This document shows, piece after piece, positions 32,943 to 47,500 of a DNA stretch of 64,000 nt (position 1 is the first letter of the stretch; every line of letters begins with the position of its first letter). Under the pieces are notes generated by a model, which saw nothing but the letters and a program-made list of their open reading frames with translations, made no database searches and was not told the origin of the DNA. Position numbers and translations under genes: made by a program. The stretch spans positions 3,851,479 to 3,915,478 of the forward strand of contig NZ_JARKMX010000008.1 in NCBI RefSeq assembly GCF_029360705.1, given 5' to 3'. The stretch comes from Paraflavitalea pollutisoli. Lineage in GTDB: Bacteria > Bacteroidota > Bacteroidia > Chitinophagales > Chitinophagaceae.

Positions 32943-33138
32943 ACGGCGCTATTGACAGGTACCGGGCGAGCGGCCACCAACTGGTGCCGGCGGACGATTA
33001 CAGGCCGGAAACCGGTGCCCCGTCGGCATTTCTGGATCCCGGGCCCTTTGATCCACCTGCTACCCGTTTTATATTTCAGAGCAAGTGTGGTTTCCACCGC
33101 CCCCGATATATTTCGTATATTTATTACAAACGCACTCA

Positions 33139-34581
33139 ATGAAGTACCTGTTCTCAGCCTGTATCCTGCTGCTCCTACTGTGCAGCCTTCCCGCCACTGC
33201 GCAAAATCCCGAACAGGAACGGCTGGACCTGCCGGGCGACAACCTCAACCTGTATGCGGTACTGAAGCTTTTCCAGGAATCGCCCACCCTCGAGCAATTT
33301 GAGCGCGCGTTGAACTCCGATTCGGCCAATATCAACAACCTCGATCTCGATGGTGATGAGAAGATCGATTACATCCAGGTAGTCGATAGCCTGGAAGGCG
33401 ATATCCACAACATCATCCTGAAGGTGTATGTGAGCGAGACGGAGGAACAGAACGTTGCCGTGATTATTGTGGAGCGTGACCGCAATGGCGAGGCCAAAGT
33501 GCAGATCGTGGGTGATGAAGACCTGTATGGCAAAGATTATATTGTAGAACCCAATTACTCCAGCGACAATCATCCCGGCGAAACACCCAACCCGGGTTAC
33601 GCGGGTCAGCAGGCGCGGGCCGATGCGCAACCGACCACTACTACCGTCGACCAGCAAGCTGTCAATATTCAATACACCACGACTTACCAGGTAGCAGCCT
33701 GGCCCATCGTATCCTTCATGTATGCACCCGGGTATATGATGTACCGTTCGCCCTGGCATTGGGGATACTATCCACCCTACTGGCGTCCCTGGGCGCCGGT
33801 ATTCTGGCACCAGTACTATGGCTATCATTACTACTGGGATTTCTATTATTTCGGTCATTTTCGCCGGTGGAACTACTACCGGTTTCCGGGATGGCATCAT
33901 TGGTATTATCGTCCAGGCCCGGGTGGGCCCCGCTTCCGGGCTCCGATCGTACATGTTCATATTTCGCGCGGCTATTACAACCGCAGCTATAGTCGTCCCG
34001 ACCTGGCCGGCGCCGGCAGGGACCGGTTCCGGAGAGACAATCCCAAGGCCCCCTCTTTCAACAACCGGCCTCCTTCTTTCGACAACAATGGTCGTCCGCA
34101 GATCACCCGGCCGGCCAGGCCTGGTGGTACCACGCGCCCCATCACCCGACCCGGTGGTGGCAGTACCAGACCCGGCGGCAATGCACGCCCCGGCACCAGG
34201 CCGGTCAATCCTGGCGGCACTACCGCACCCCGTCCCGGTACTACACGGCCGGTCAATCCGGGTGACGGCAATAACCCGGGTACGACAAGACCGGGTACCC
34301 GCCCGGTAAACCCCGGTGGCACAACGCGCCCTGTGAATCCCGGCGGTGGCAGCAATCCAGGCACACCGCGACCAGGAACCACCCGGCCGGTCAATCCCGG
34401 TGGAACGACCCGCCCCGGCACTACGCGACCCGTGAACCCCGGTGGTGGCAGCAACCCGTCTACCCGTCCTTCCACGCGACCAGCCCAGCCTTCCACCCGG
34501 CCGGCGCAACCCAGCACCCGCCCCTCGTCACCGGCCCAGCGGCCTGCTACTTCGCGCCCCACAAGGCCTGGCGGAAAATAG
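33139..34581 (+). CDS. Exported Tyr/Trp/His-rich protein with TRPVNPGG repeats
   Basis: Protein of 480 aa from ATG 33139, where a signal peptide starts (MKYLFSACILLLLLCSLPATA). Residues ~25-160 form a folded, acidic region (LYAVLKLFQESPTLEQFERA, then LDGDEKIDYIQVVDS). Residues ~185-275 are dense in Tyr, Trp, His, Phe and Pro (SPWHWGYYPPYWRPWAPVFW). The last ~150 residues are Arg/Pro/Gly/Thr repeats around TRPVNPGG. I know this kind of protein only as hypothetical in Bacteroidota. The basic, proline-rich tail suggests a periplasmic or surface role, but no function can be assigned. Confidence 0.75.
   Translation: MKYLFSACILLLLLCSLPATAQNPEQERLDLPGDNLNLYAVLKLFQESPTLEQFERALNSDSANINNLDLDGDEKIDYIQVVDSLEGDIHNIILKVYVSETEEQNVAVIIVERDRNGEAKVQIVGDEDLYGKDYIVEPNYSSDNHPGETPNPGYAGQQARADAQPTTTTVDQQAVNIQYTTTYQVAAWPIVSFMYAPGYMMYRSPWHWGYYPPYWRPWAPVFWHQYYGYHYYWDFYYFGHFRRWNYYRFPGWHHWYYRPGPGGPRFRAPIVHVHISRGYYNRSYSRPDLAGAGRDRFRRDNPKAPSFNNRPPSFDNNGRPQITRPARPGGTTRPITRPGGGSTRPGGNARPGTRPVNPGGTTAPRPGTTRPVNPGDGNNPGTTRPGTRPVNPGGTTRPVNPGGGSNPGTPRPGTTRPVNPGGTTRPGTTRPVNPGGGSNPSTRPSTRPAQPSTRPAQPSTRPSSPAQRPATSRPTRPGGK
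34126..34578 (+). repeat. In-frame TRPVNPGG-type coding repeats
   Basis: A run of irregular repeats, consensus (G)TTRPVNPGGG(S/N)NPGTxRPGTRP, degrading at the end to STRPAQP units. At DNA level the unit CGGCCGGTCAATCC and its variants recur. Such arrays vary in copy number between strains by slippage. Confidence 0.75.
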
Positions 34582-35133: not shown

Positions 35134-37176
35134 ATGCTGCAGAAAGAACTGAGCATCTACACCTTTAAGGACCTGCTGGAGCATTTCCCCTATCGTCATA
35201 TCGACAAAACCAAGATCAACCAGGTACGCGATATCAACCCGGCGACTGACTTTATCCAGCTGGCGGGCCGCATTACCAGTATGGGCATCATGGGCGAAAA
35301 ACGCAGCAAAAGGCTGGTCGCCGAACTCCGGGACCGCTCGGGTACGGTAGAACTGACCTGGTTTCAGGGTATTCCCTGGATACAAAAAATGCTGGTGGTG
35401 GGCCAGGCCTACCAGGTATATGGTAAAGTGAACTTTTTTCAGGGTACGCCCCAGCTCACCCACCCCGAGATCGAGTCGCTGACGGAAGAAAACCCGGCGG
35501 CCGCCCGCAACTTCCTGGAGCCGGTGTATTCCACCACCGAAAAGCTGAAAGCCCGCGGCCTTGGCGCCCGGCAGATCGCCAACCTCACCAAAGCGCTTTT
35601 TCTGCAGGTGAAAGAGAAAGACCTGCCGGAAAACCTGCCCGAGTATGTCACCAAACCCCTGCAACTGGTACCCCGGTTCCAGGCCTTGACCCATATCCAT
35701 TTCCCGCCTTCCGTAGAAGCCTGGGAACAGGCCATGAACCGCCTGAAATTTGAAGAGTTCTTCATCGCCCAGTTAAGGATGCACCTGGTGAAAGCCAAAC
35801 GCCACCGCTATTCCCAGGGAGTGGTATTTCGACAGGTGGGCGAGATCTTCAATACGTTTTACGAGAAACACCTGCCCTTCGAGCTCACCGGGGCTCAAAA
35901 GCGGGTGATCAAAGAGATCCGGAAAGATACCGGCAGCGGCCGCCAGATGAACCGCCTGCTGCAGGGCGATGTAGGTAGCGGCAAGACCATTGTGGCGCTA
36001 CTTGTGATGCTGCTGGCGGCAGACAACGGCTACCAGAGCTGCCTGATGGCGCCTACCGAGATCCTTGCCCGCCAACACTTTGCGGGTTTACAGCAATTGT
36101 TGGATGGACTGCCTGTCAACATCCGCATCCTGACCGGTACCACCAAAGCCGCCGAACGGCGCGACATCTTTAAAAAACTCGCCTCCGGCGAGATACAGAT
36201 CATCGTAGGCACCCATGCCCTGCTGGAAGACCCCGTGGTTTTCAATAACCTGGGGCTATCCATCGTCGATGAGCAACACCGTTTTGGGGTGGCACAACGG
36301 GCCAAATTGTGGGCCAAAGCCACCATACCACCGCACAACCTGGTGATGACCGCCACCCCCATCCCGCGTACACTGGCCATGACGGCCTACGGCGACCTGG
36401 ATTACAGTGTGATGGACGAATTACCGCCCAACCGTAAACCTATTTTAACCGTACATCGTTATGACACCGCACGCAGTCAGGTGATGGGTTTTATCAAGGC
36501 AGAGATCGAGCTGGGACGGCAGTGTTATATCGTATTTCCACTCATTGAAGAATCGGAGAAGCTCGATTATGAGAACCTGATGAAAGGATACGAAAATGTG
36601 CAGGCCTATTTTCCCGAGCCTAAATACTGGATCAGCATGGTGCATGGCCGCCAACCCACGGATGTCAAGAATACCAACATGCAACGATTTGTGGCCAACG
36701 ACACTCAGATCATGGTCGCCACCACGGTGATCGAAGTGGGGGTAAATGTGCCGAATGCCAGTGTGATGGTGATCGAAAACGCCGAGAAATTTGGTCTCTC
36801 TCAGTTGCACCAGTTGCGTGGCCGGGTAGGCCGGGGAGCCGAAAAGAGCTTTTGCATATTGTTAACAAGCACGAAACTCAATAACGACGCGAAGGAACGG
36901 ATCAAGACGATGTGCGAAACGACCGATGGTTTCAAAGTGGCGGAAAAAGACTTAGCATTGCGGGGACCAGGCGACATAGAAGGAACGAGACAAAGTGGTA
37001 TGCTGAACTTTAAACTGGCCAGCATTGTAGAAGACCGGGAGTGGCTTGAAGCAGCCAGGGCCGTTGCGGAAAAGATCGCCGACAACGACCCAGAACTGGA
37101 AGCACCGGAAAATGCCATACTCAAAGAGTACCTGCAATCGCTGCGCGGCAAAACAGCCTGGAGCAAAATTTCGTAA
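35134..37176 (+). CDS. recG: ATP-dependent DNA helicase RecG (true start lies upstream)
   Basis: Branch-migration helicase that processes stalled forks and Holliday junctions. From its first ATG it has 680 aa. Motifs are Walker A QGDVGSGKT, DEQHRFGVAQRAKL (motif II), TATPIPRTLA (III), and the C-terminal QLRGRVGRG. The conserved wedge-domain start, PIEYLKGVGPQRAEML, is encoded in frame upstream (35092-35139), so the ATG at 35134 is too late. No ATG, GTG or TTG lies in that frame back to a stop at 34915-34917. The real start is probably a rare codon such as ATT 35056. Confidence 0.92.
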   Translation: MLQKELSIYTFKDLLEHFPYRHIDKTKINQVRDINPATDFIQLAGRITSMGIMGEKRSKRLVAELRDRSGTVELTWFQGIPWIQKMLVVGQAYQVYGKVNFFQGTPQLTHPEIESLTEENPAAARNFLEPVYSTTEKLKARGLGARQIANLTKALFLQVKEKDLPENLPEYVTKPLQLVPRFQALTHIHFPPSVEAWEQAMNRLKFEEFFIAQLRMHLVKAKRHRYSQGVVFRQVGEIFNTFYEKHLPFELTGAQKRVIKEIRKDTGSGRQMNRLLQGDVGSGKTIVALLVMLLAADNGYQSCLMAPTEILARQHFAGLQQLLDGLPVNIRILTGTTKAAERRDIFKKLASGEIQIIVGTHALLEDPVVFNNLGLSIVDEQHRFGVAQRAKLWAKATIPPHNLVMTATPIPRTLAMTAYGDLDYSVMDELPPNRKPILTVHRYDTARSQVMGFIKAEIELGRQCYIVFPLIEESEKLDYENLMKGYENVQAYFPEPKYWISMVHGRQPTDVKNTNMQRFVANDTQIMVATTVIEVGVNVPNASVMVIENAEKFGLSQLHQLRGRVGRGAEKSFCILLTSTKLNNDAKERIKTMCETTDGFKVAEKDLALRGPGDIEGTRQSGMLNFKLASIVEDREWLEAARAVAEKIADNDPELEAPENAILKEYLQSLRGKTAWSKIS

Positions 37177-37356
37177 ATTACCGGCAGGGCACCATCAATA
37201 ACCGACGACCAATATTCCATGAAAAACGGCTACTCTTTAACACAGCCCACCGATCAACCGATCACACTGCTTAAAATGGTATTATAATCATGCACACGGC
37301 CATCATGGACCGGCAGGCTATGATATTATATTCAGTAATTTGTAAAAAATAATTCT

Positions 37357-40300
37357 TTGGGTAGGAAAAGTTTGATAGTTACCGTGCTTTTGTTGGCTGC
37401 CACCCTCCGGACCTTTGCACAGGATGGCAACGAGGCGTTCGACTTCACGGAAAATAAAGGACAGTGGGACAAACAGGTTCGGTACAGAGGCGACGTACCC
37501 GCGGGTGCCTTCTATCTCCACAACAACGGCTTTACCGTAGTACAGCACAATGGCGATGACCTCGACAATTTCTTCCATCGCCATCACCTGTTTACCCCCG
37601 TCGACGGCAGCGGTAAACCGGGCCGCCCCGACCGCGGTCCCAACAAGCCGGGCAAACCTGGCGAGCCAGGCACCCCACCTACCATCCCCCCACCTACCCC
37701 CATTCGCTCCCATGCTTACCGGGTGTACTTTGTAGGGGCCAATGAGAACAGCCAGTTTCAACCCGATAAACAGGTACAAACCACCACGAGTTATTTCATC
37801 GGCAACGATCCGTCCAAATGGGCCGTCAATGTACCCGTTTTTCAGGCAGTCCTGTACAAAGACATTTACCCCAATATCGATATCCGTTACTACTCGGCGT
37901 ATGGACGTCTCAAGTATGATATCATCGTGCACCCCGGCGGTGACCCCAGCAAGATCGTGATGCGGTATGAAGGGGCAGAAAAATTGTCGATCAAAAAGAA
38001 CGAGCTGATCATCAAAACATCGGTCGGTGATCTCAAGGAAATGTATCCTTATTCGTACACCTTCGACATGACCAATGGCAAAAAAGAGATTCCCTGCGAG
38101 TATGTACTCGATGGCAATACCGTACGGTTTAAACTGACCAGCTATTCCAAAACGGCTACGCTGGTGATCGACCCTACCCTGGTGTTCTGTTCCTTTACCG
38201 GCAGTGCTGCCAACCAATATGGGTATACAGCCACGCCAGGCCCCGATGGTTCGCTCTATTCCGGCGGTATTGTATTTGGTCAGGGATTTCCTACTACCCC
38301 GGGCGCCTATCAATCTGGCTTCGGTGGCGGCGACAACATCTCCGAGTTGGGCGGAATCGATATGGGCATCTTCAAGTTTACTCCGAATGGCCGGCGTGCC
38401 TACGCCACCTACCTGGGTGGCAACCGCAACGACTATCCACACAGTCTTATCTGCGACCCCCAGGGTAACCTGGTGGTGATGGGTAAAACCTATAGCACCA
38501 ACTTCATGGGCAGTGTAGTAGGTCCTGGTGGCGGATCTGATATTGCGTTGGTCAAGCTGAACGCCACCGGTACCAATATCATCGGAGCCCTGCGCATCGG
38601 TGGTACCGGCAATGATGGTATCAACATCGGCGATCAGATACAGGGTAACGTGAGCCGGGGAGCTACCTTTCGTTTTTATGGCGATGATTCGCGCAGCGAA
38701 GTGATCCTCGACGGCGCCAACAATATTTACGTGGCAGCCCAAACCCAGTCTACCGGCAGCGCCGGCGGCTTCCCCGTAACTACCGGTGCGTTCCAGACCA
38801 ATCCCGGCGGCGCGCAAGATGGTGTGGTCATGAAGATCAACCCCAACTGTAACAACGTACTGTGGGCGAGCTTCCTGGGTGGTAGCGGTGACGACGGTGC
38901 TTTTGTGCTGTCGCTGAATCCTGTCAACAACGAATTGTATGTGGGCGGTGCTACGACCAGCACTAATTTTCCACCGGCGAATAAACCAGGCGTTTACCAG
39001 AGCGGCTTCCAGGGTGGTATCGCCGATGGCTTCATCTCCCGCATCTCCAATAACGGCAGTACACTGCTCAACACGACTTACCTGGGCACCGGTTCATTCG
39101 ATGCCGTATACGGACTGAAATTCGACCGGGCTGGTAACCCTTATGCGATGGGCGTTACAGAAGGCGCGTGGCCGGTACAGAACGCCGCTTACAGCATTGC
39201 CAACTCCAAACAGTTTATTGTAAAAATGCGTCCCGACCTTTCGGGCCTCACGTATTCTACCGTCTTTGGCAATGGATCTGCCACGCCCAATATTTCGCCG
39301 GTCGCCTTCCTGGTAGACCGTTGTGAGAATGTCTATATCTCCGGATGGGGTGGATGGATACAAGCCGGCCAGGATCCCTTTCAGATGGGCGGCCTGGGCA
39401 ATATGCCCCTCTCGACCGATGCCATCAAAAAAACAACCGATAACCGCGATTTCTATTTCATTGTTATCAAGCGGGATGCTTCCGAGTTGATGTATGCCAC
39501 CTATTTTGGCCAAAGCGGCGGAGAAGGTGAGCACGTGGACGGTGGTACCAGCCGGTACGATGAACAAGGGGTAATCTACCAGGCCATCTGCGCCAATTGC
39601 TTTGGCGCCCGCGCCGGCAATATCACCCAATCTTTTCCTACTACACCAGGCGTGTGGGCCGAAAGGAATGGCAGCCGGGATTGTAACCTGGCCGCCGTGA
39701 AGATCGCTTTCAACTTTGCCGGTGTGGCCTCGGGCCCCAGGGCTTATTTCAACAACCGGTTGGATACCGTAGGTTGTGCCCCGTTTACCGTCGACTTCCG
39801 CGATACGGTACGTAATGCCGTCAAATACGAGTGGGATTTTGACGGGGACGGCAATACCGACCTCACCACCGATACTTACAACGCCTCCTATACCTTCAAC
39901 AATATCGGCAATTACCGTGTACGCCTGATTGCGATCGACGAAAGCACCTGTAACCAGCGCGATACCGCTTATGTCACCATCCGTGTACGGAATGACGAAG
40001 CCAAGATCGCCTTCGATGCGGTGAAGGATGGTCCCTGCGAATCGCTTGGCTTCCGGTTCATCAACCACTCCACCGCACCTGCTTCCAAACCTTTTGGCCC
40101 CACACCATTTGCCTGGGATTTTGGCGATGGCAGTCCGCAGGTGATCACCGGTACCGATCCGGTTACCCACCTGTTCCCGGCTCCTGGTTCTTACCCCATC
40201 AAACTCATACTGCTCGATACGAACTATTGCAATGGCGGCGACTGGGAAGAAATAAAGCTGGGCGTAGTGGCCAATGTAGAAGCACGGGTTGAAACACCGG

Positions 40301-41049
40301 CACAGGGTTGTGCCCCCTATGATGCCTTCTTCAACAACACCTCGCTGGGTGGGCATGATTATTTATGGGATTTTGGTGATAACAGTCCCAAATCACCTGA
40401 AATGAGCCCTATTCACCGATACGACCAGGTAGGTGATTACAATGTACGGTTGATCGTATGGGATTCCAATACGTGTAACAAGGTGGACACATTCGACTTC
40501 TCCATTTCGGTGCGACAAAAGCCCACCGCGCTGTTCAGTTTCACCCCGGCAACACCCGAGGTCAACAAGCCTACCACCTTTATCAATAATTCATCGATCG
40601 ATGCCAACCTGTTTCGCTGGGATTTTGGTGATGGCGATACGCTGATCAACCGCAACCGGCTGGATAATGTACAGCATCAGTTCAACGCAACCGGTGAGTT
40701 CAAGGTATTGCTGATCGCCTATAATGCGGATGGCTGTTCCGATACGGCACGAGCCACGGTACAATCGCTCATCGACCCGTTGCTCGATGTGCCCAATGCC
40801 TTTACACCGGGTAGGGGCAACCGTACGAGTATCGTAAAAGTACTCGGCTTCGGTATCGAAAAGATGACCTGGCGCATTTATAACCGTTGGGGACAAAAGG
40901 TATTCGAGACCACGGACCGGCGTGCCGGCTGGGATGGTTTTTACCAGGGTAAGCTGCAGCCAATGGATGTGTACAGCTATACACTCGATGTGGTATTCAC
41001 CGATGGCAGACCGCTGCGCAAAACCGGTGACATCACTTTGATCAGGTAA
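37357..41049 (+). CDS. Giant T9SS type-B surface protein with SBBP and PKD repeats (copy 1)
   Basis: Protein of 1,230 aa. The start is TTG 37357, which opens a signal peptide (KSLIVTVLLLAATLRTFAQ); no ATG or GTG lies between it and an upstream stop. Residues ~27-280 are a DUF7948-type domain (FDFTENKGQWDKQVRY). A Gly/Pro/Lys linker is inside it (near 90-115). Beta-propeller-like SBBP repeats cover ~290-780. Four PKD domains follow (WDFDGDG, WDFGDGS, WDFGDNS, WDFGDGD). Residues ~1138-1230 are the gliding-motility type-B sorting domain (DVPNAFTPGRGNRTS, WRIYNRWGQKVFET). It is predicted to be T9SS-secreted. Its paralog lies at 42367, with a PorP/SprF gene between. Confidence 0.9.
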   Translation: MGRKSLIVTVLLLAATLRTFAQDGNEAFDFTENKGQWDKQVRYRGDVPAGAFYLHNNGFTVVQHNGDDLDNFFHRHHLFTPVDGSGKPGRPDRGPNKPGKPGEPGTPPTIPPPTPIRSHAYRVYFVGANENSQFQPDKQVQTTTSYFIGNDPSKWAVNVPVFQAVLYKDIYPNIDIRYYSAYGRLKYDIIVHPGGDPSKIVMRYEGAEKLSIKKNELIIKTSVGDLKEMYPYSYTFDMTNGKKEIPCEYVLDGNTVRFKLTSYSKTATLVIDPTLVFCSFTGSAANQYGYTATPGPDGSLYSGGIVFGQGFPTTPGAYQSGFGGGDNISELGGIDMGIFKFTPNGRRAYATYLGGNRNDYPHSLICDPQGNLVVMGKTYSTNFMGSVVGPGGGSDIALVKLNATGTNIIGALRIGGTGNDGINIGDQIQGNVSRGATFRFYGDDSRSEVILDGANNIYVAAQTQSTGSAGGFPVTTGAFQTNPGGAQDGVVMKINPNCNNVLWASFLGGSGDDGAFVLSLNPVNNELYVGGATTSTNFPPANKPGVYQSGFQGGIADGFISRISNNGSTLLNTTYLGTGSFDAVYGLKFDRAGNPYAMGVTEGAWPVQNAAYSIANSKQFIVKMRPDLSGLTYSTVFGNGSATPNISPVAFLVDRCENVYISGWGGWIQAGQDPFQMGGLGNMPLSTDAIKKTTDNRDFYFIVIKRDASELMYATYFGQSGGEGEHVDGGTSRYDEQGVIYQAICANCFGARAGNITQSFPTTPGVWAERNGSRDCNLAAVKIAFNFAGVASGPRAYFNNRLDTVGCAPFTVDFRDTVRNAVKYEWDFDGDGNTDLTTDTYNASYTFNNIGNYRVRLIAIDESTCNQRDTAYVTIRVRNDEAKIAFDAVKDGPCESLGFRFINHSTAPASKPFGPTPFAWDFGDGSPQVITGTDPVTHLFPAPGSYPIKLILLDTNYCNGGDWEEIKLGVVANVEARVETPAQGCAPYDAFFNNTSLGGHDYLWDFGDNSPKSPEMSPIHRYDQVGDYNVRLIVWDSNTCNKVDTFDFSISVRQKPTALFSFTPATPEVNKPTTFINNSSIDANLFRWDFGDGDTLINRNRLDNVQHQFNATGEFKVLLIAYNADGCSDTARATVQSLIDPLLDVPNAFTPGRGNRTSIVKVLGFGIEKMTWRIYNRWGQKVFETTDRRAGWDGFYQGKLQPMDVYSYTLDVVFTDGRPLRKTGDITLIR

Positions 41050-41162
41050 ACAAAAACAGGCAATAAAACGTAGGTAAGCCAACCGCGACCGCCGATAAAA
41101 ACGTATATTAGATAACAGCCTTCGCCCAGCTATCAGGGATTCGATATATAAAAATTACGACT

Positions 41163-42257
41163 ATGTGTGACCAATGTGAGATGCACCAGGAAGTAGCGGA
41201 GAAATCTGCCGGGGCTCCTTCATTTTATTTACGGACTGCCCTGCTTTTTGTGTTGTGCGGGTTAAGTTTTGCCCGAACGGCACACGGACAGGATTTGCAC
41301 TTCTCACAATGGTTCAATACCCCATTGCTGACCAATCCGGCCAATACCGGGTTTATTCCGGATGCCGACTACCGCCTGGGCGCCAATTACCGTAACCAGT
41401 GGTCTACTGTGATGACGGTACCTTATAAAACGATGAGCATTTGGGGCGATGCCCAGGTATTCCGCGACCGCATCGAAAGTGGCTGGCTGGGCTTGGGAGG
41501 TGTCATTTTGCGTGATGTTGCCGGCTCCAGCCAGTTGACCTCAACCAAGATCTATGCTTCGGCAGCTTATCACCAGATGCTCGGTATTGCACATTTGATC
41601 TCCGCCGGCTTCAATGTGGGCTGGGCCAACAAACGCATCAATGTGGCTGCGCTCAAGTTTCCCGATCAGTTTGACGGTAAATTCTTCGACTCCAACTTCC
41701 CGTCGGACGGGATACCGGAAGCTACCAATATTAATTACTTCGATGTACAGTTGGGGGTGAACTATGCGTTCTTCCCTTCCGACAAGATCTATATCAATGG
41801 TGGGCTCAGTGCCATGCACATCAACCGCCCACGTGAATCTTTTTTCAATACCGACCCTACGGGTTATGACTCCAGGATCTCTCCCCGCTACAATGGCTTT
41901 GTCAATGCCAGCCTGAAGGTAACAGACGATGTGATCATCAATCCCATGGCTTATTACAGCATGCAGGCCAAGTCCAACGAACTGGTGGCAGGCGGCTATG
42001 CTCAATACAATTTGTCGGGCGAAGGTGGTGCCATGCAGGTATTGGGCGGGCTGTATTACCGGGCCGGAGATGCCTTTGTTCCGATGATCGGCTTTGAATA
42101 CAAAAATATTCGGCTTACATTCACTTACGATGCAACTACTTCCTCTCTAAAACAATATAATGGCAGCCGGGGTGCGTATGAATTTGCGCTGACACACCGG
42201 GGCTTTTATGATGAATACAATGGCGACAAGCGTCAATCGCTTTGTCCCACGTTCTAA
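41163..42257 (+). CDS. PorP/SprF-family outer-membrane protein
   Basis: Protein of 364 aa of the type IX secretion-associated PorP/SprF family: DLHFSQWFNTPLLTNPANTGF at about 44-64 is the family signature. A beta-barrel follows to the end. Family members accompany type-B T9SS substrates and are thought to help anchor or export them, and here the gene lies between two such substrates. The N-terminus is unusual: about 22 residues including MCDQCEMHQ precede the hydrophobic signal core (TALLFVLCGLSFARTAHG). Confidence 0.9.
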   Translation: MCDQCEMHQEVAEKSAGAPSFYLRTALLFVLCGLSFARTAHGQDLHFSQWFNTPLLTNPANTGFIPDADYRLGANYRNQWSTVMTVPYKTMSIWGDAQVFRDRIESGWLGLGGVILRDVAGSSQLTSTKIYASAAYHQMLGIAHLISAGFNVGWANKRINVAALKFPDQFDGKFFDSNFPSDGIPEATNINYFDVQLGVNYAFFPSDKIYINGGLSAMHINRPRESFFNTDPTGYDSRISPRYNGFVNASLKVTDDVIINPMAYYSMQAKSNELVAGGYAQYNLSGEGGAMQVLGGLYYRAGDAFVPMIGFEYKNIRLTFTYDATTSSLKQYNGSRGAYEFALTHRGFYDEYNGDKRQSLCPTF

Positions 42258-42366
42258 CGGATCGTACACAACATTCGGCGTTTCAGGATCTATCCAAATA
42301 GTTTGATCAACGGCTGGTAGCACCCGCCATTGGTTATTCTTTTGTGTACTATTAAAGCATTGCCAC

Positions 42367-45300
42367 TTGGACTGGAAAAAGCTTATAGTGATTCCCATCC
42401 TTCTCGCTACCCTGCAACTGATGGCGCAGGGCGGTGCGGCTTCCTTTGAGTTTACGGAAAACAAAGGACAGTGGGAGCCACAGGTACGCTTCAAGAGTAC
42501 GCTTTCGACCGGCGCTTTTTTCCTGCAGCAGAATGGCTTTACCGTGGTACAACACAATGGCGATGATCTTTCCTTTTTCTTCGACCGCAACCACGTAGGA
42601 GAAGACGCCGCCCATGGCCGCGGACGCCCCGACCGGGGGCCCAACAGCCGGCCCACGCCTCCACCGGCCAACCCCACTGCTATCCGGTCGCATGCCTACC
42701 GGGTACAATTCCTGGGTGCCAATGAACAGGCCCTGGCCATTCCTGAAAAACAGGTACCCACCCAGGTCAGCTATTTTATTGGCAATGATCCCGCACAATG
42801 GGCCACCAACGTACCGGTATACCAGGCAGTGGTCTATAAAGACATTTATCCCCATATCGATATCCGTTATTACTCCGACAACGGGCAGCTGAAGTACGAC
42901 CTGGTGGTACGTCCCGGGGGCGATCCATCACAAATCGCCATGAACTATGAAGGCGTAGACAAGCTGCTGGTAAAAAATGAGGAACTGATCATCCGCACCT
43001 CTGTAGGCGACCTGAAAGAACTGTATCCCTATTCTTATTCGTTCAGTATGGAAGAAGGGAAGAAAGAAGTAGCCTGTGCGTACCGGCTATCCGGCAACAC
43101 CATCCGCTTTCAGGTAGGTGCTTATGCGAAGAACAGCACACTGGTCATCGACCCCACACTGGTCTTCTGCTCTTTTACCGGCAGTGCCGCTGACCAGTAT
43201 GGTTATACGGCCACACCTGGTCCAGATGGCTCCCTCTTCTCTGGCGGCATCGTATTCGACAAAGGCTTTCCTGTTACCACGGGTGCTTACCAGGTGGATT
43301 TCCAGGGTGGCTCGGGCAGCGGTAAAGGCGTGGATATGGGCATCTTCAAATTCTCGCCCAATGGCCAACGCATGTACGCCACCTACCTGGGTGGCAATGG
43401 AAACGACTATCCCCATAGCCTGATGTGTGATCCACAAGGCAACCTGGTCATTATGGGCAAAACTTTTTCCAGCAACTACCCGGGCACCCTGAAAGGCAAA
43501 GGGGGCGGATCGGATATTGCCGTTACCAAGCTCAATGCTGGCGGTACCGCCCTGATCGGTTCGCTGCGCATTGGTGGCACTGGTAATGATGGCGTCAATA
43601 TCAAAGACCAGCTGGGTGCCTCGATGTCGCCCAATGCCACTTTTCGCTTTTACGGTGATGATTCGCGTAGTGAAGTGATCCTCGACAGAGCCAATAACAT
43701 TTATGTAGCGGCACAATCCCAATCGTCGGGCACGAATGATGGCATGCCGGTTACCACGGGTGCATTTCAGATCAACAACCGCGGCGGGCAGGATGGCACG
43801 ATCATCAAGATCAACCCCAGCTGTACGGATATCACCTGGTGCAGTTACCTGGGCGGCAGTGGTACGGATGGCGCTTTTGTGATTGCCATCAACCCGGCCA
43901 ACGAGGACATCTATGTAGGCGGCGCTACTACGAGCGAAGACCTGCTGCCGGCCAACAAGCCCGGTGTATACCAGGCTGCTTTCCAAAAAGGGGGTACCGA
44001 TGGTTTTGTATCGCGCATCTCCAATGATGGTACTACGCTCATCAACACGACTTATATGGGTACCGGTTCGTTTGATGCGGTGTATGGGCTAAAATTCGAC
44101 CGGCACAATATTCCTTATATCATGGGCGTCACGGAAGGTGCCTGGCCCGTGATCAATGCCAATTATAAAATCGCCAATTCAAAACAGTTCATCGCGAAGC
44201 TGCAGCCTGATCTGTCGGGCTTCATCTATTCTACTGTATTTGGCAATGGATCGGCCAAGCCCAATATTTCGCCCGTAGCCTTCCTTGTAGACCGTTGCGA
44301 AAACGTGTATATATCCGGATGGGGCGGCTGGCTGGTACCCAACCCCAACAGTGCCAATATGGATGGCATTGCCAATATGCCCATCACCCCGGATGCCATC
44401 AAGAAAACGACCGACAACCGTGACTTCTATTTCATCGTGATCAAGAAAGATGCAGAGGGTTTACTGTATGGAAGTTATTTTGGACAGACGGGTGGATTTG
44501 GAGAGCACGTCGATGGTGGTACCAGCCGTTATGATGAGCAGGGAGCGATATATCAGGCGGTGTGCGCCAACTGCGGCGGATCGCGCGATTACAATATCAG
44601 CCAATCCTTCCCGACTACACCGGGCGTATGGGGCCCCGTCAATGGCAGCCGGGAATGTAACCTGGCCGCCATCAAGATCGCTTTCAACTTTGCCGGTGTG
44701 GCCTCGGGCCCCAAGTCTTATTTCAATAACCTGCCCGACACGATGGGCTGTGTGCCTTTCACCGTTCAATTCAAAGACACGGTACGCAATGCCACTTCGT
44801 ACGAATGGGATTTCAACGGAGATGGTGTCAACGACCTCAACACGGCCACCTTCGATGCCAGCTATACCTTCGGCGCAGTAGGCACATACCGGGTAAGGTT
44901 GATCGCCATCGATCCCAGCACCTGCAATGAGCGGGATACGGCGTATGTAACCATCCGTGTGCGGGATGATCCTGCGCATATCGACTTCACGGCCTTGAAG
45001 GATGGTCCGTGTGAATCGCTGGCCTTCCTGTTTACCAATACTTCCACGCATCCGCCGCCACCGGGTAAACCTTTTGGCCCCAACAGCTTTGCCTGGGATT
45101 TTGGCGACAATACGCCCATTACCCCCACGGGCACGGCACCGGTTACACACCAATACCTGGCGCCCGGTACTTACCCGGTACGCCTGATCCTGCTGGATAC
45201 GAACTACTGCAACCAGGGCGACTGGAAGCCACTCAAACTGGGTGTAGTGGCCAATGTAGAAGCCAGGGTGGAGACGCCACGCATGGGTTGCGCTCCCTAT

Positions 45301-46023
45301 GATGCCTATTTCAACAATACCTCACTCGGCGGGCATGACTATACCTGGGATTTTGGTGATGGAACCACTTCGCACGAGATGAGCCCTACGCATCTCTATA
45401 CTGCCATCCGCAGTTACAATATCCGGCTCATCGTAGAGGATTCGAATACCTGTAACAAACGCGACACCTTCGACTTTACGATCGTCGTGAACCCCAAGCC
45501 TACGGCTGGCTTTACCGCCACTCCCAAAATACCGGAGACCAACAAACCAACCTCTTTCTTCAACACCTCGCAAAATGCGGTGAAGTACAAATGGATCTTT
45601 GGCGATGGGGATATGCTGGTGACCAACGACAGGCTGACGACTGTACAACATCAGTACAATGCTACCGGCCACTATACCGTACACCTGGTCGCCTTCAACG
45701 AATATGATTGTACCGATACGGCTACCCTCGTGGTAGAGGCACTCATCGATCCATTGCTCGATGTGCCCAATGCCTTTACCCCAGGCAGGGGCAACCGCTC
45801 CAGCATCGTGAAGGTCGCTGGCTTCGGCATCGACAAAATGACCTGGCGTATCTTCAACCGGTGGGGTCAGAAGGTATTTGAGACGGCCAACCGCAGTAGC
45901 GGCTGGGACGGTACTTTCCAGGGCAAACTACAACCCATGGATGTATACTCCTATACCCTGGAAGTGGTCTTCACGGATGGCAAGCACCTCAAGCGAACCG
46001 GCGACATCACGCTGATACGGTAA
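42367..46023 (+). CDS. Giant T9SS type-B surface protein with SBBP and PKD repeats (copy 2)
   Basis: Protein of 1,218 aa, collinear with the one at 37357 throughout, with long identical blocks (for example VIDPTLVFCSFTGSAA and DPLLDVPNAFTPGRGNR). It also starts at TTG (42367), with signal peptide DWKKLIVIPILLATLQLMAQ. Domain order is the same: DUF7948-type domain, SBBP repeats, four PKD domains and the type-B sorting domain (last ~93 residues). The third and fourth PKD domains differ most from copy 1. The pair arose by tandem duplication around or with the PorP/SprF gene. Confidence 0.9.
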   Translation: MDWKKLIVIPILLATLQLMAQGGAASFEFTENKGQWEPQVRFKSTLSTGAFFLQQNGFTVVQHNGDDLSFFFDRNHVGEDAAHGRGRPDRGPNSRPTPPPANPTAIRSHAYRVQFLGANEQALAIPEKQVPTQVSYFIGNDPAQWATNVPVYQAVVYKDIYPHIDIRYYSDNGQLKYDLVVRPGGDPSQIAMNYEGVDKLLVKNEELIIRTSVGDLKELYPYSYSFSMEEGKKEVACAYRLSGNTIRFQVGAYAKNSTLVIDPTLVFCSFTGSAADQYGYTATPGPDGSLFSGGIVFDKGFPVTTGAYQVDFQGGSGSGKGVDMGIFKFSPNGQRMYATYLGGNGNDYPHSLMCDPQGNLVIMGKTFSSNYPGTLKGKGGGSDIAVTKLNAGGTALIGSLRIGGTGNDGVNIKDQLGASMSPNATFRFYGDDSRSEVILDRANNIYVAAQSQSSGTNDGMPVTTGAFQINNRGGQDGTIIKINPSCTDITWCSYLGGSGTDGAFVIAINPANEDIYVGGATTSEDLLPANKPGVYQAAFQKGGTDGFVSRISNDGTTLINTTYMGTGSFDAVYGLKFDRHNIPYIMGVTEGAWPVINANYKIANSKQFIAKLQPDLSGFIYSTVFGNGSAKPNISPVAFLVDRCENVYISGWGGWLVPNPNSANMDGIANMPITPDAIKKTTDNRDFYFIVIKKDAEGLLYGSYFGQTGGFGEHVDGGTSRYDEQGAIYQAVCANCGGSRDYNISQSFPTTPGVWGPVNGSRECNLAAIKIAFNFAGVASGPKSYFNNLPDTMGCVPFTVQFKDTVRNATSYEWDFNGDGVNDLNTATFDASYTFGAVGTYRVRLIAIDPSTCNERDTAYVTIRVRDDPAHIDFTALKDGPCESLAFLFTNTSTHPPPPGKPFGPNSFAWDFGDNTPITPTGTAPVTHQYLAPGTYPVRLILLDTNYCNQGDWKPLKLGVVANVEARVETPRMGCAPYDAYFNNTSLGGHDYTWDFGDGTTSHEMSPTHLYTAIRSYNIRLIVEDSNTCNKRDTFDFTIVVNPKPTAGFTATPKIPETNKPTSFFNTSQNAVKYKWIFGDGDMLVTNDRLTTVQHQYNATGHYTVHLVAFNEYDCTDTATLVVEALIDPLLDVPNAFTPGRGNRSSIVKVAGFGIDKMTWRIFNRWGQKVFETANRSSGWDGTFQGKLQPMDVYSYTLEVVFTDGKHLKRTGDITLIR

Positions 46024-46126: not shown

Positions 46127-47500
46127 ATGAGATCCTTACTGATCGTTTGCCTGCTCGTTGCCGCCTGGCCTGCCTGGGCGCAGCCCCTGCCCGACTCCCG
46201 CCAACAGGAGATCGTTATCCGGAATGTGACGATCATCCCGATGGACAAAGAACAGGTGTTGCCCAACCAGACGGTGGTGGTAAAAGATGGCAAGATCAGT
46301 TTAGTGGGTGATGCCCGCACGATACGCTACAGCGCCAATGCTACGGTGATCGATGGCACTGGCAAATTCCTGCTGCCCGGCCTCACGGAAATGCACGCCC
46401 ACGTGCCGCCGATCGACGATATTGCACCGATGAAAAAGGTGGTATTGCTGTTTGCCCTGAAAGGGGTAACAACGATCCGTGGTATGCTGGGCCACCCGCG
46501 TCACCTGGAGTTACGCAGCAAACTGCAAAGTGGCGAGATCATCGGGCCACGCCTGTATACTTCTGGCCCGTCCATCAACGGGCAAACCGCCGCCGACCCG
46601 GCCACGGCTGCACGCATGGTGCGGGAACAACAAGCTGCCGGGTACGACTTCCTGAAACTACATCCCGGCCTTACGCTGGAGAACTTCAATATCATTGTAA
46701 AAACGGCGCGTGAAGTGAAGATCCCTTTCGCGGGTCACGTATCGTATGGGGTGGGCGTATGGCGCGCCATCGAAGCGGGTTATGCGTCGATCGATCATAT
46801 GGATGGATTTGTGGAAGGGCTGGTACCGGGCATCGAAAACATATCTGAAAAAGAGGTGGGTCTGTTTGGTGTGTTCATTGCCAAGAAGGCCGACACGACG
46901 AAGCTACCGCGGCTAACCAAAGCACTGCGGGAAAAACGAGTATGGGTGGTACCCACCCAATCATTGGCAGAAAGATGGATATCGCCCGCACAAACACCCG
47001 AAGCACTTGGCCGGGAACCGGAGATGGTCTATATGCAGCCCAATACATTGACTGGCTGGATCAATGCCAAGAAGAGCTTACAAAAAGACCCGCGTTATGT
47101 AGCCGCAGAAGTAGAACAGTATGTGGCTTTGCGCCGCCAACTCATCAAGGCCTGCCAGCAGCAGGGCGTTGGTTTGCTACTGGGTTCGGATGCGCCTCAG
47201 ATCTTCGATGTGCCGGGATTCTCCCTGCATCATGAGCTCAGCTTTATGGTGAAAGCGGGTCTTACGCCGTATGAAGCATTGCGTACCGGTACCGTAAACC
47301 CTGCCCGTTTTTTCCAGGACAACAATGCGGGTGTGATCAAACCTGGTGCGCGGGCCGATCTGTTGTTGCTCAACAGCAATCCTTTGCAACGGATCGAGGC
47401 CAGCCAGGATATTGCCGGTGTCGTACTGGCGGGTCGCTGGCTCAGCCAATCTTATATCGATACGGAACTTGCGCGCCTGGCGACAGAAAAAACAAACTAG
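46127..47500 (+). CDS. Exported amidohydrolase (imidazolonepropionase-like)
   Basis: Metal-dependent hydrolase of 457 aa with signal peptide (MRSLLIVCLLVAAWPAWAQ). The amidohydrolase metal motif is LPGLTEMHAHV. A Lys in DFLKLHPG is the likely carboxylated bridge, with His residues in FAGHVSYG and SIDHMDGF, and Asp in LLGSDAPQIF. Family members cleave cyclic amides or dipeptides. The substrate here is unknown. It ends just before a strong bidirectional terminator. Confidence 0.88.
   Translation: MRSLLIVCLLVAAWPAWAQPLPDSRQQEIVIRNVTIIPMDKEQVLPNQTVVVKDGKISLVGDARTIRYSANATVIDGTGKFLLPGLTEMHAHVPPIDDIAPMKKVVLLFALKGVTTIRGMLGHPRHLELRSKLQSGEIIGPRLYTSGPSINGQTAADPATAARMVREQQAAGYDFLKLHPGLTLENFNIIVKTAREVKIPFAGHVSYGVGVWRAIEAGYASIDHMDGFVEGLVPGIENISEKEVGLFGVFIAKKADTTKLPRLTKALREKRVWVVPTQSLAERWISPAQTPEALGREPEMVYMQPNTLTGWINAKKSLQKDPRYVAAEVEQYVALRRQLIKACQQQGVGLLLGSDAPQIFDVPGFSLHHELSFMVKAGLTPYEALRTGTVNPARFFQDNNAGVIKPGARADLLLLNSNPLQRIEASQDIAGVVLAGRWLSQSYIDTELARLATEKTN

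Follow-up and report, generated by a model that had tools for sequence, protein, structure and literature searches.

Among described products of the type 9 secretion system (T9SS), the closest counterparts of the locus considered here are PorP/SprF-family shuttles and their type-B cargos. In Flavobacterium johnsoniae, the gene of the shuttle SprF lies directly downstream of that of its one type-B cargo, SprB, no PorE-like gene stands beside it, and SprF carries a twin Cys-X-Cys in its periplasmic tail (PMC12618676, PMC12635249, PMC9143113). SprF and PorG form disulfides to GldK, and PorG of Porphyromonas gingivalis, a T9SS component with 8 predicted strands, has a single tail Cys in an outer-membrane barrel and is needed for type 9 export (PMC12635249). 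In P. gingivalis, a PorP-type barrel also holds the type-B cargo PG1035, with PorE linking the barrel to the cell wall, and a division of cargos into mobile and static ones by PorE was proposed earlier (PMC9143113). The operons of the mobile F. johnsoniae cargos SprB and Fjoh_4750 contain no PorE gene, while that of the static Fjoh_3952 has one (PMC12618676). Here we describe a locus in a 64,000-nucleotide stretch of the Paraflavitalea pollutisoli genome (the window; G000:C15:3851479-3915478) in which two giant genes, A and B, flank one PorP/SprF gene. Our best overall explanation, held at a probability of about 0.5, is that A and B are T9SS-exported surface proteins sharing this PorP, i.e., different heads on one carrier.

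As a T9SS type-B cargo-shuttle module, the locus is ordinary and belongs to a known kind of system. On the plus strand the gene order is recG, giant A, PorP/SprF, giant B, and an amidohydrolase gene, and the module itself has the following features:

37335..37349, + strand: short element GTAAWTTGTAAAAAA, shortly 5' of A's TTG (comparison of upstream regions, 8 A or single-copy and 5 B)
37357..41049, + strand: giant A, predicted T9SS type-B cargo, 1,230 aa, TTG start
37444..38178, + strand: DUF7948 domain of A, residues 30-274 (Pfam, 241.5 bits)
38179..39741, + strand: beta-propeller head of A, residues 275-795 (AlphaFold2 model and CylK structural match), with most of the consistent A/B differences
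39742..40770, + strand: four PKD domains of A, the stalk, residues 796-1138 (four PKD_4 stretches)
40771..41046, + strand: CHU_C / type-B sorting domain of A, residues 1139-1230 (CHU_C, 37.1 bits)
41163..42257, + strand: PorP/SprF-family shuttle, 364 aa (PF11751, TIGR03519, 14-strand barrel model)
42243..42245, + strand: codon of Cys361, the sole C-tail cysteine of PorP (end SLCPTF)
42367..46023, + strand: giant B, predicted T9SS type-B cargo, 1,218 aa, TTG start
42427..44721, + strand: DUF7948 and propeller head of B, residues 21-785 (alignment to A, Pfam)
44722..45744, + strand: four PKD domains of B (four PKD_4 stretches)
45745..46020, + strand: CHU_C / type-B sorting domain of B (last 100 residues, 80 identical to A)

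Open reading frame (ORF) calls and profile matches bore out the first-pass annotation's description of two collinear giants (1,230 and 1,218 aa) around a single PorP/SprF gene, and a profile search recovered the domains it had named in both, namely DUF7948, an SBBP match, four PKD_4, and CHU_C. SBBP matches A as a separate stretch, whereas in B only the score of the whole protein passes. CHU_C scored 37.1 bits in A and 42.7 bits in B (Pfam cut-off, 27), and TIGR04131 scored 37.4 bits in B and 33.7 bits in A, the latter narrowly below the NCBI cut-off of 35. Both N-termini are hydrophobic and end ..FAQ (A) or ..MAQ (B), so that, judging the signal peptide by eye, the shared layout is putative signal peptide, DUF7948, beta-propeller, four PKD, and CHU_C. 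The whole genome contained 2 DUF7948 matches (A and B themselves), 5 PorP/SprF matches, and 17 CHU_C matches above cut-off. PorP scored 127.8 bits against PF11751 (cut-off, 22.3) and 159.7 bits against TIGR03519 (cut-off, 90.55), and its model (mean predicted local distance difference test score, pLDDT, 78.8) is a 14-strand, FadL-type outer-membrane barrel with a 17-residue, low-confidence tail after the last strand. The top five Foldseek matches of this model, at template modelling (TM) scores of about 0.5, included FadL (2r88) and chain F of the T9SS complexes 8gl6 and 6h3i, which we take to be PorV. Each giant would be made with a signal peptide and cross the outer membrane through the T9SS translocon; the PorP barrel encoded by the intervening gene would then take over its type-B sorting domain and retain it at the surface, as suggested by SprB-SprF and by published crosstalk between shuttles. 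A and B are probably displayed on the cell surface.

Both giants have the PorP/SprF gene directly beside them, B starting 109 bases after the PorP end. Their sorting domains were identical at 80 of the last 100 residues, as against 32-37 of 100 when A and B were compared with two further type-B sorting domains from the same genome (B alone, 34-37%). In F. johnsoniae, the Fjoh_3952 sorting domain was accepted by the shuttle of a 68%-identical cargo and not at 43 or 26% identity, and three orphan type-B cargos, Fjoh_1123, _1720, and _4934, use one distant shuttle (PMC12618676). Because of the identity between the two sorting domains, the crosstalk at 68%, and the precedent of three cargos on one shuttle, it is likely that one PorP serves both giants. 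The Fjoh_1677 shuttle takes three orphan type-B cargos with related sorting domains (>44% identical), although there the cargo genes are unlinked to the shuttle gene, whereas here both flank PorP (PMC12618676). Elsewhere in the same genome (L243; G000:C15:4015500-4026500, 4011466-4020404), two adjacent large CHU_C frames (1,637 and 1,471 aa) are followed by a PorP that ends MLCPRF and has no PorE-like neighbour, perhaps another two-cargo shuttle.

The A/B duplication is real, since 70.1% identity over 1,216 aligned residues is not a chance likeness. The first-pass annotation had placed the greatest divergence in the last two PKD domains and had suggested different surface partners for a shared anchor. 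Alignment by domain upheld the former for PKD4, the lowest at 51.7%, and not for PKD3, which at 74.7% lies above the mean of the protein; PKD1 (73.2%), PKD2 (68.0%), DUF7948 (64.8% without its proline-rich linker), the propeller (73.8%), and the sorting domain (83.7%) completed the series. Moreover, PKD4 was loose everywhere, i.e., 60.3% identical among A orthologues, 66.3% among B orthologues, and 63.4% in within-genome A-B pairs. We then scored separating sites, defined as positions at which the five A and five B proteins of the genus share no residue. Of 63 such sites, 42 fell in the propeller (P = 1.7e-4 relative to its share of the length), 10 in DUF7948 with the linker, 6 in the PKDs, and 5 in the signal peptide; the sorting domain had none, and no fixed A/B difference was found in PKD1-4. 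It is therefore mainly the propeller, rather than the PKD stalk or the anchor, that consistently distinguishes A from B. Domain identities, separating sites, and the re-pairing test described below all led us to reject the PKD domains as the site of a functional split; a shared anchor with different partners is thus plausible in its first part, the shared shuttle, while the split itself is mainly in the propeller.

The head was modelled with AlphaFold2 (mean pLDDT 84.9), and its best structural match was the propeller of CylK, a cyanobacterial alkylating enzyme (7fh6-8, 7ron), with a VIA-align 2 Z of 34.3, a root mean square deviation of 2.5, 390 residues, and 22% identity. Other propellers followed at Z 28.9 and below, and the head sequence profile also found CylK (E 6.4e-14). 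CylK has the same kind of propeller as the giants; it differs in that the alignment is limited to the propeller, and the match names a fold rather than a function, so an enzymatic head is not claimed. The structural list, spanning model residues 245-766, hardly reached DUF7948, and the literature searched contained no mention of DUF7948 by name. The papers found under SBBP, judged by titles and the start of abstracts, did not concern this locus. Among solved structures, the giants' profile also matched GhpA, a grappling-hook protein of Aureispira (9flp; whole-chain E 2.9e-22), in four stretches (window 39742-41046), the best lying in the sorting domain.

If an old duplication had been left untouched, each A should resemble the B beside it in the genome no more than it resembles the Bs of other genomes. 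When As and Bs of the five genomes were re-paired, the observed value was reached in 53 of 120 re-pairings for the propeller, 1 of 120 each for PKD1-4 and for DUF7948 including its linker, and 3 of 120 each for the sorting domain and the whole head. Without one genome (G117), the corresponding values were 11 of 24 (propeller), 1 of 24 (DUF7948), and 1 of 24 (PKD). In the trees, A formed a clade in the head (99/99) and not in the stalk, and an approximately unbiased (AU) test rejected A as one clade in the sorting domain alone (P = 0.031). On average, then, DUF7948, the PKD stalk, and the sorting domain were more alike within than between genomes of the genus. In G117, 40-codon runs of A and B reached up to 97% synonymous identity, whereas the best orthologue, taken over the full gene, gave 52-58%, and near-identical codon tracts (L039), e.g., around residues 771-890, resemble recent gene conversion. 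Several results weigh against this reading: the values per region are uncorrected across the several regions, the sorting domain without G117 (3 of 24) is not telling, and for the stalk plus C-terminal domain (P = 0.163) and the PKDs (P = 0.235) a single clade of A remained acceptable under the AU test. The window's own pair also shows little homogenisation, with DUF7948 at 64.8% against an across-genome A-B mean of 72.6%, the sorting domain at 83.7% against 86.1%, and a sole candidate tract, residues 751-805, matching in 32 of 40 codons against 30 of 40 between window B and the B of G119. Thus, the pattern is shown over five genomes and is weak in the window's pair. Gene conversion has probably acted on the stalk and ends in relatives and left the propeller to diverge; the heads would then have been held apart across the genus while DUF7948, the stalk, and the sorting domain were mixed between copies. 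Because the propeller alone was kept apart in this way, the most likely reading is that a single carrier presents two distinct heads.

How such a carrier might be anchored is suggested by its tail. All 99 distinct, complete PorPs from related loci (the window's own PorP is outside that count) had exactly one Cys in the last 16 residues, 91 of them had no other Cys after residue 45, and the Cys frequency from residue 61 to the tail was 0.0002; a Cys-Pro pair was invariant in 35 of 35 aligned PorPs. The periplasmic tail of the window's PorP would likewise end in the single Cys of an otherwise almost Cys-free barrel. A profile search found no PorE-like neighbour for any of 111 PorPs of related loci, partial ones included and some near contig ends, and no PorE-like gene beside PorP in the window, while the same profile found a neighbour for 56 of 145 other PorPs serving as control (from 140 hand-picked regions; 147 found, two duplicates dropped). 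The genome's own GldK scored above cut-off (584.9 bits), and the Cys of its GC[LF]L motif aligned to the PorK Cys of 9ots/9mzu; spacing and conservation suggest that it is the equivalent of Cys343. A GldJ-like protein is encoded in the genome as well. Because of the invariant single tail Cys, the lack of a PorE-like neighbour, and a GldK with an aligned Cys, our best guess is that PorP is attached to the gliding track through its tail Cys. The single invariant tail Cys without a PorE neighbour is the new point here, and it resembles track-riding shuttles. As in the SprB-SprF system, the shuttle gene lies directly downstream of the first cargo gene, has no PorE-like gene beside it, and encodes a periplasmic tail with Cys, although SprB is far larger (669 kDa) and repetitive and is the one cargo of SprF where PorP would have two, whereas the giants here carry a DUF7948 and propeller head (PMC12618676, PMC12635249, PMC9143113). 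PorG shares the single tail Cys and, unlike the window's PorP, is no cargo shuttle (PMC12635249). The barrel of PorP-PorE-PG1035 holds a type-B cargo, as here; its link to the wall through PorE has no counterpart among the 111 PorPs of related loci (PMC9143113).

The foremost alternative, which we regard as possible, if clearly short of an even chance, is that the cargo is static and that the tail Cys serves another purpose, such as barrel assembly. A tail Cys was also present in 9 of 13 PorE-neighboured PorPs of Chitinophagaceae, and static type-B cargos are known in Fjoh_3952 and in most Fjoh_1123 foci, though the latter have no PorE linked (PMC12618676). Across the 145 control PorPs, 48 had the tail Cys only, 38 PorE only, 18 both, and 41 neither (Fisher P = 0.011, rows not independent); a Cys is expected by chance in ~4% of 16-residue stretches of these proteins, and 66 of the 145 tails had one. 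In the same order (Cys only, PorE only, both, neither), the counts were 11, 17, 0, and 3 in family f12 (31 PorPs; 9 of 11 Cys tails are Cys-X-Cys), 18, 4, 9, and 4 in Chitinophagaceae, 12, 8, 6, and 19 in other families of the order, and 7, 9, 3, and 15 in other families of the class. Mutual exclusion of a tail Cys and PorE was accordingly rejected as a general rule, since it is carried by f12 alone of the four groups, and the tail Cys is no proof of track attachment. Besides the Chitinophagaceae counts and the lack of association in three of the four groups, other points tell against a track-bound PorP: its tail holds one Cys and not the twin Cys-X-Cys of SprF; the GldJ-like protein scored 351 bits, below its cut-off of 458; and Fjoh_1123 sorting-domain foci, with no PorE linked, were mostly static and helical in 3% of cells (PMC12618676). 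Against static cargo, in turn, stand the finding that 0 of 111 PorPs of related loci have a PorE-like neighbour and the retention of the tail Cys in all 99 PorPs, whose mature chains are otherwise nearly Cys-free. At least three of the 'neither' PorPs (L211, L273, and L277) have OmpA-domain-like ends and could be fusions of PorP with OmpA. In addition, four Chitinophagaceae regions (L245, L290, L292, and L296) hold PorP-PorE-PorP triples with a tail Cys on both PorPs, unlike f12, with ends of the CPRNVW and VCPRL types, and the genome's strongest PorP match (L241; G000:C15:2014000-2025000) ends SPRNVW, where several relatives have CPRNVW or CPKNVW.

We surveyed relatives at 119 tabulated loci, i.e., 40 hand-picked ones (two-copy genomes favoured) and 79 genome contigs, the best of 593 confirmed matches, with some loci contained twice (e.g., L041 and L078). 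One-copy relatives, for which the first-pass annotation had proposed a search, were indeed present, recG-giant-PorP being the commonest order (78 of 119). The order recG-giant-PorP-giant occurred in ten loci, and giant-giant-PorP, giant-PorP-giant-PorP, and giant-recG-giant-PorP were also found; in L054 (G055) the entire giant-PorP unit is doubled, as recG-giant-PorP-giant-PorP. In all five genomes found for the genus, both copies lacked stops and were related to each other, so no unrelated second copy occupied B's place there. Beyond the genus, a second large protein near B's place was only 30% identical in L087 (13159-15942), one of the ten, and 28% identical in L125 (15212-17818). Of 198 genomes of the phylum searched, 16 matched at E 1e-100 or better, comprising 8 family genomes whose matches spanned the protein wholly or for the most part (in pieces for G014) and 8 outsiders that matched mainly in the head; the family limit is not sharp, as a few metagenome-assembled genomes among the matches are labelled as other groups (L112, L145). 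In a quick tree of 54 proteins with the genus counted once, copies were nearest kin in 10 of 12 two-copy lineages (SH-aLRT 99-100), the others being G013 and G035. Since copies are mostly nearest kin within lineages, additional copies were gained repeatedly next to a single conserved giant-PorP pair. In a later tree, A and B of the G071/Longitalea/Niastella clade were united in the stalk (100/98), with the head left unresolved; in the Niastella/Longitalea clade B likewise lies between PorP and an aldo/keto-reductase gene. AU tests on heads, which used 24 of 34 aligned rows (Pinibacter_B and nine rows of more remote relatives were excluded), rejected a single old duplication shared with this clade, whether all A heads (P = 9.4e-5) or all B heads (P = 4.2e-5) were placed together, and did not reject all two-copy rows as one clade (P = 0.098). 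Two duplications and a single one with early homogenisation both remain.

At the 5' ends, TTG was the first start of both A and B, as the first-pass annotation had noted, and relatives kept it at the homologous place: it was the start in 8 of 8 A or single-copy genes compared (five of the genus plus G029, G002, and G102) and stood in 5 of 5 B genes of the genus, two of which have an in-frame ATG further upstream. Among 134 giants, 90 had TTG as the earliest possible start codon, 36 had ATG, and 8 had GTG. Because TTG is kept in both sets, the copy includes the coding start and signal-peptide end. The claim that duplication took in the 5' ends extends no further, as the promoter was not recognisably copied: in the window, the 60-base stretches preceding A and B were 35.7% alike, and a shuffled B gave 31.9%. 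Across the genus, A upstreams were 69.7% alike and B upstreams 44.0%, and GTAAWTTGTAAAAAA was conserved before A or single-copy genes (8 upstreams compared) and not seen before B (5 compared). A and B may be separately controlled.

That B is merely a second copy raising the amount of one surface protein, with head differences due to neutral drift, we consider unlikely. Second copies did arise repeatedly in many genera, relatives show mixing of the stalk and sorting domain across copies, and dN/dS between A and B is low, at ~0.13 over the whole gene; as dS is 1.8 and near saturation (pS domain by domain, 0.56-0.79), no domain-wise omega conclusion was drawn. Neutral dosage fits poorly with the concentration of consistent differences in the propeller and with the propeller being alone without signs of homogenisation over five genomes. 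That B is an orphan client of another shuttle of the genome is very improbable, for although type-B cargos on a distant shuttle are known (Fjoh_1123, _1720, and _4934; PMC12618676), its sorting domain is far closer to A's than to the two others compared, and its gene begins just after PorP.

The genes bordering the module are:

35134..37176, + strand: recG, ATP-dependent DNA helicase (RecG_wedge and RecG_dom3_C above cut-off)
46127..47500, + strand: amidohydrolase-family gene (same neighbour in the genus's 4 other genomes; no known link)

recG stands before a giant in 107 of the 119 tabulated loci and is probably a conserved neighbour and not part of the locus function. Shortly 5' of recG, an ORF at 33085-34581 has a long, repetitive C-terminus of the RPGGTTRPVNPGG type.

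What routes type-B cargo either onto the gliding track or to a static site is unsettled in the cited literature, and the locus is a compact test of whether one thiol is enough for track linkage and of which residues a shuttle reads. Its value as a test rests on one invariant tail Cys, no PorE neighbour, and two natural cargos that differ in ~20 of 100 sorting-domain residues; of these features, the lone thiol of the tail most merits experimental testing. The consistent, head-only difference suggests how one carrier gains more than one surface partner. A more far-reaching proposal for the family, which we put forward as doubtful, is that the recG-linked PorP of Chitinophagaceae locks to a moving GldK track by one invariant tail thiol and in several lineages serves two giants, with repeated cargo duplication, gene conversion of the stalk and sorting signal, and propeller heads alone held apart. 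If this is true, the locus would be a two-headed, track-driven adhesin or sampling system with a one-cysteine version of the SprF linkage.

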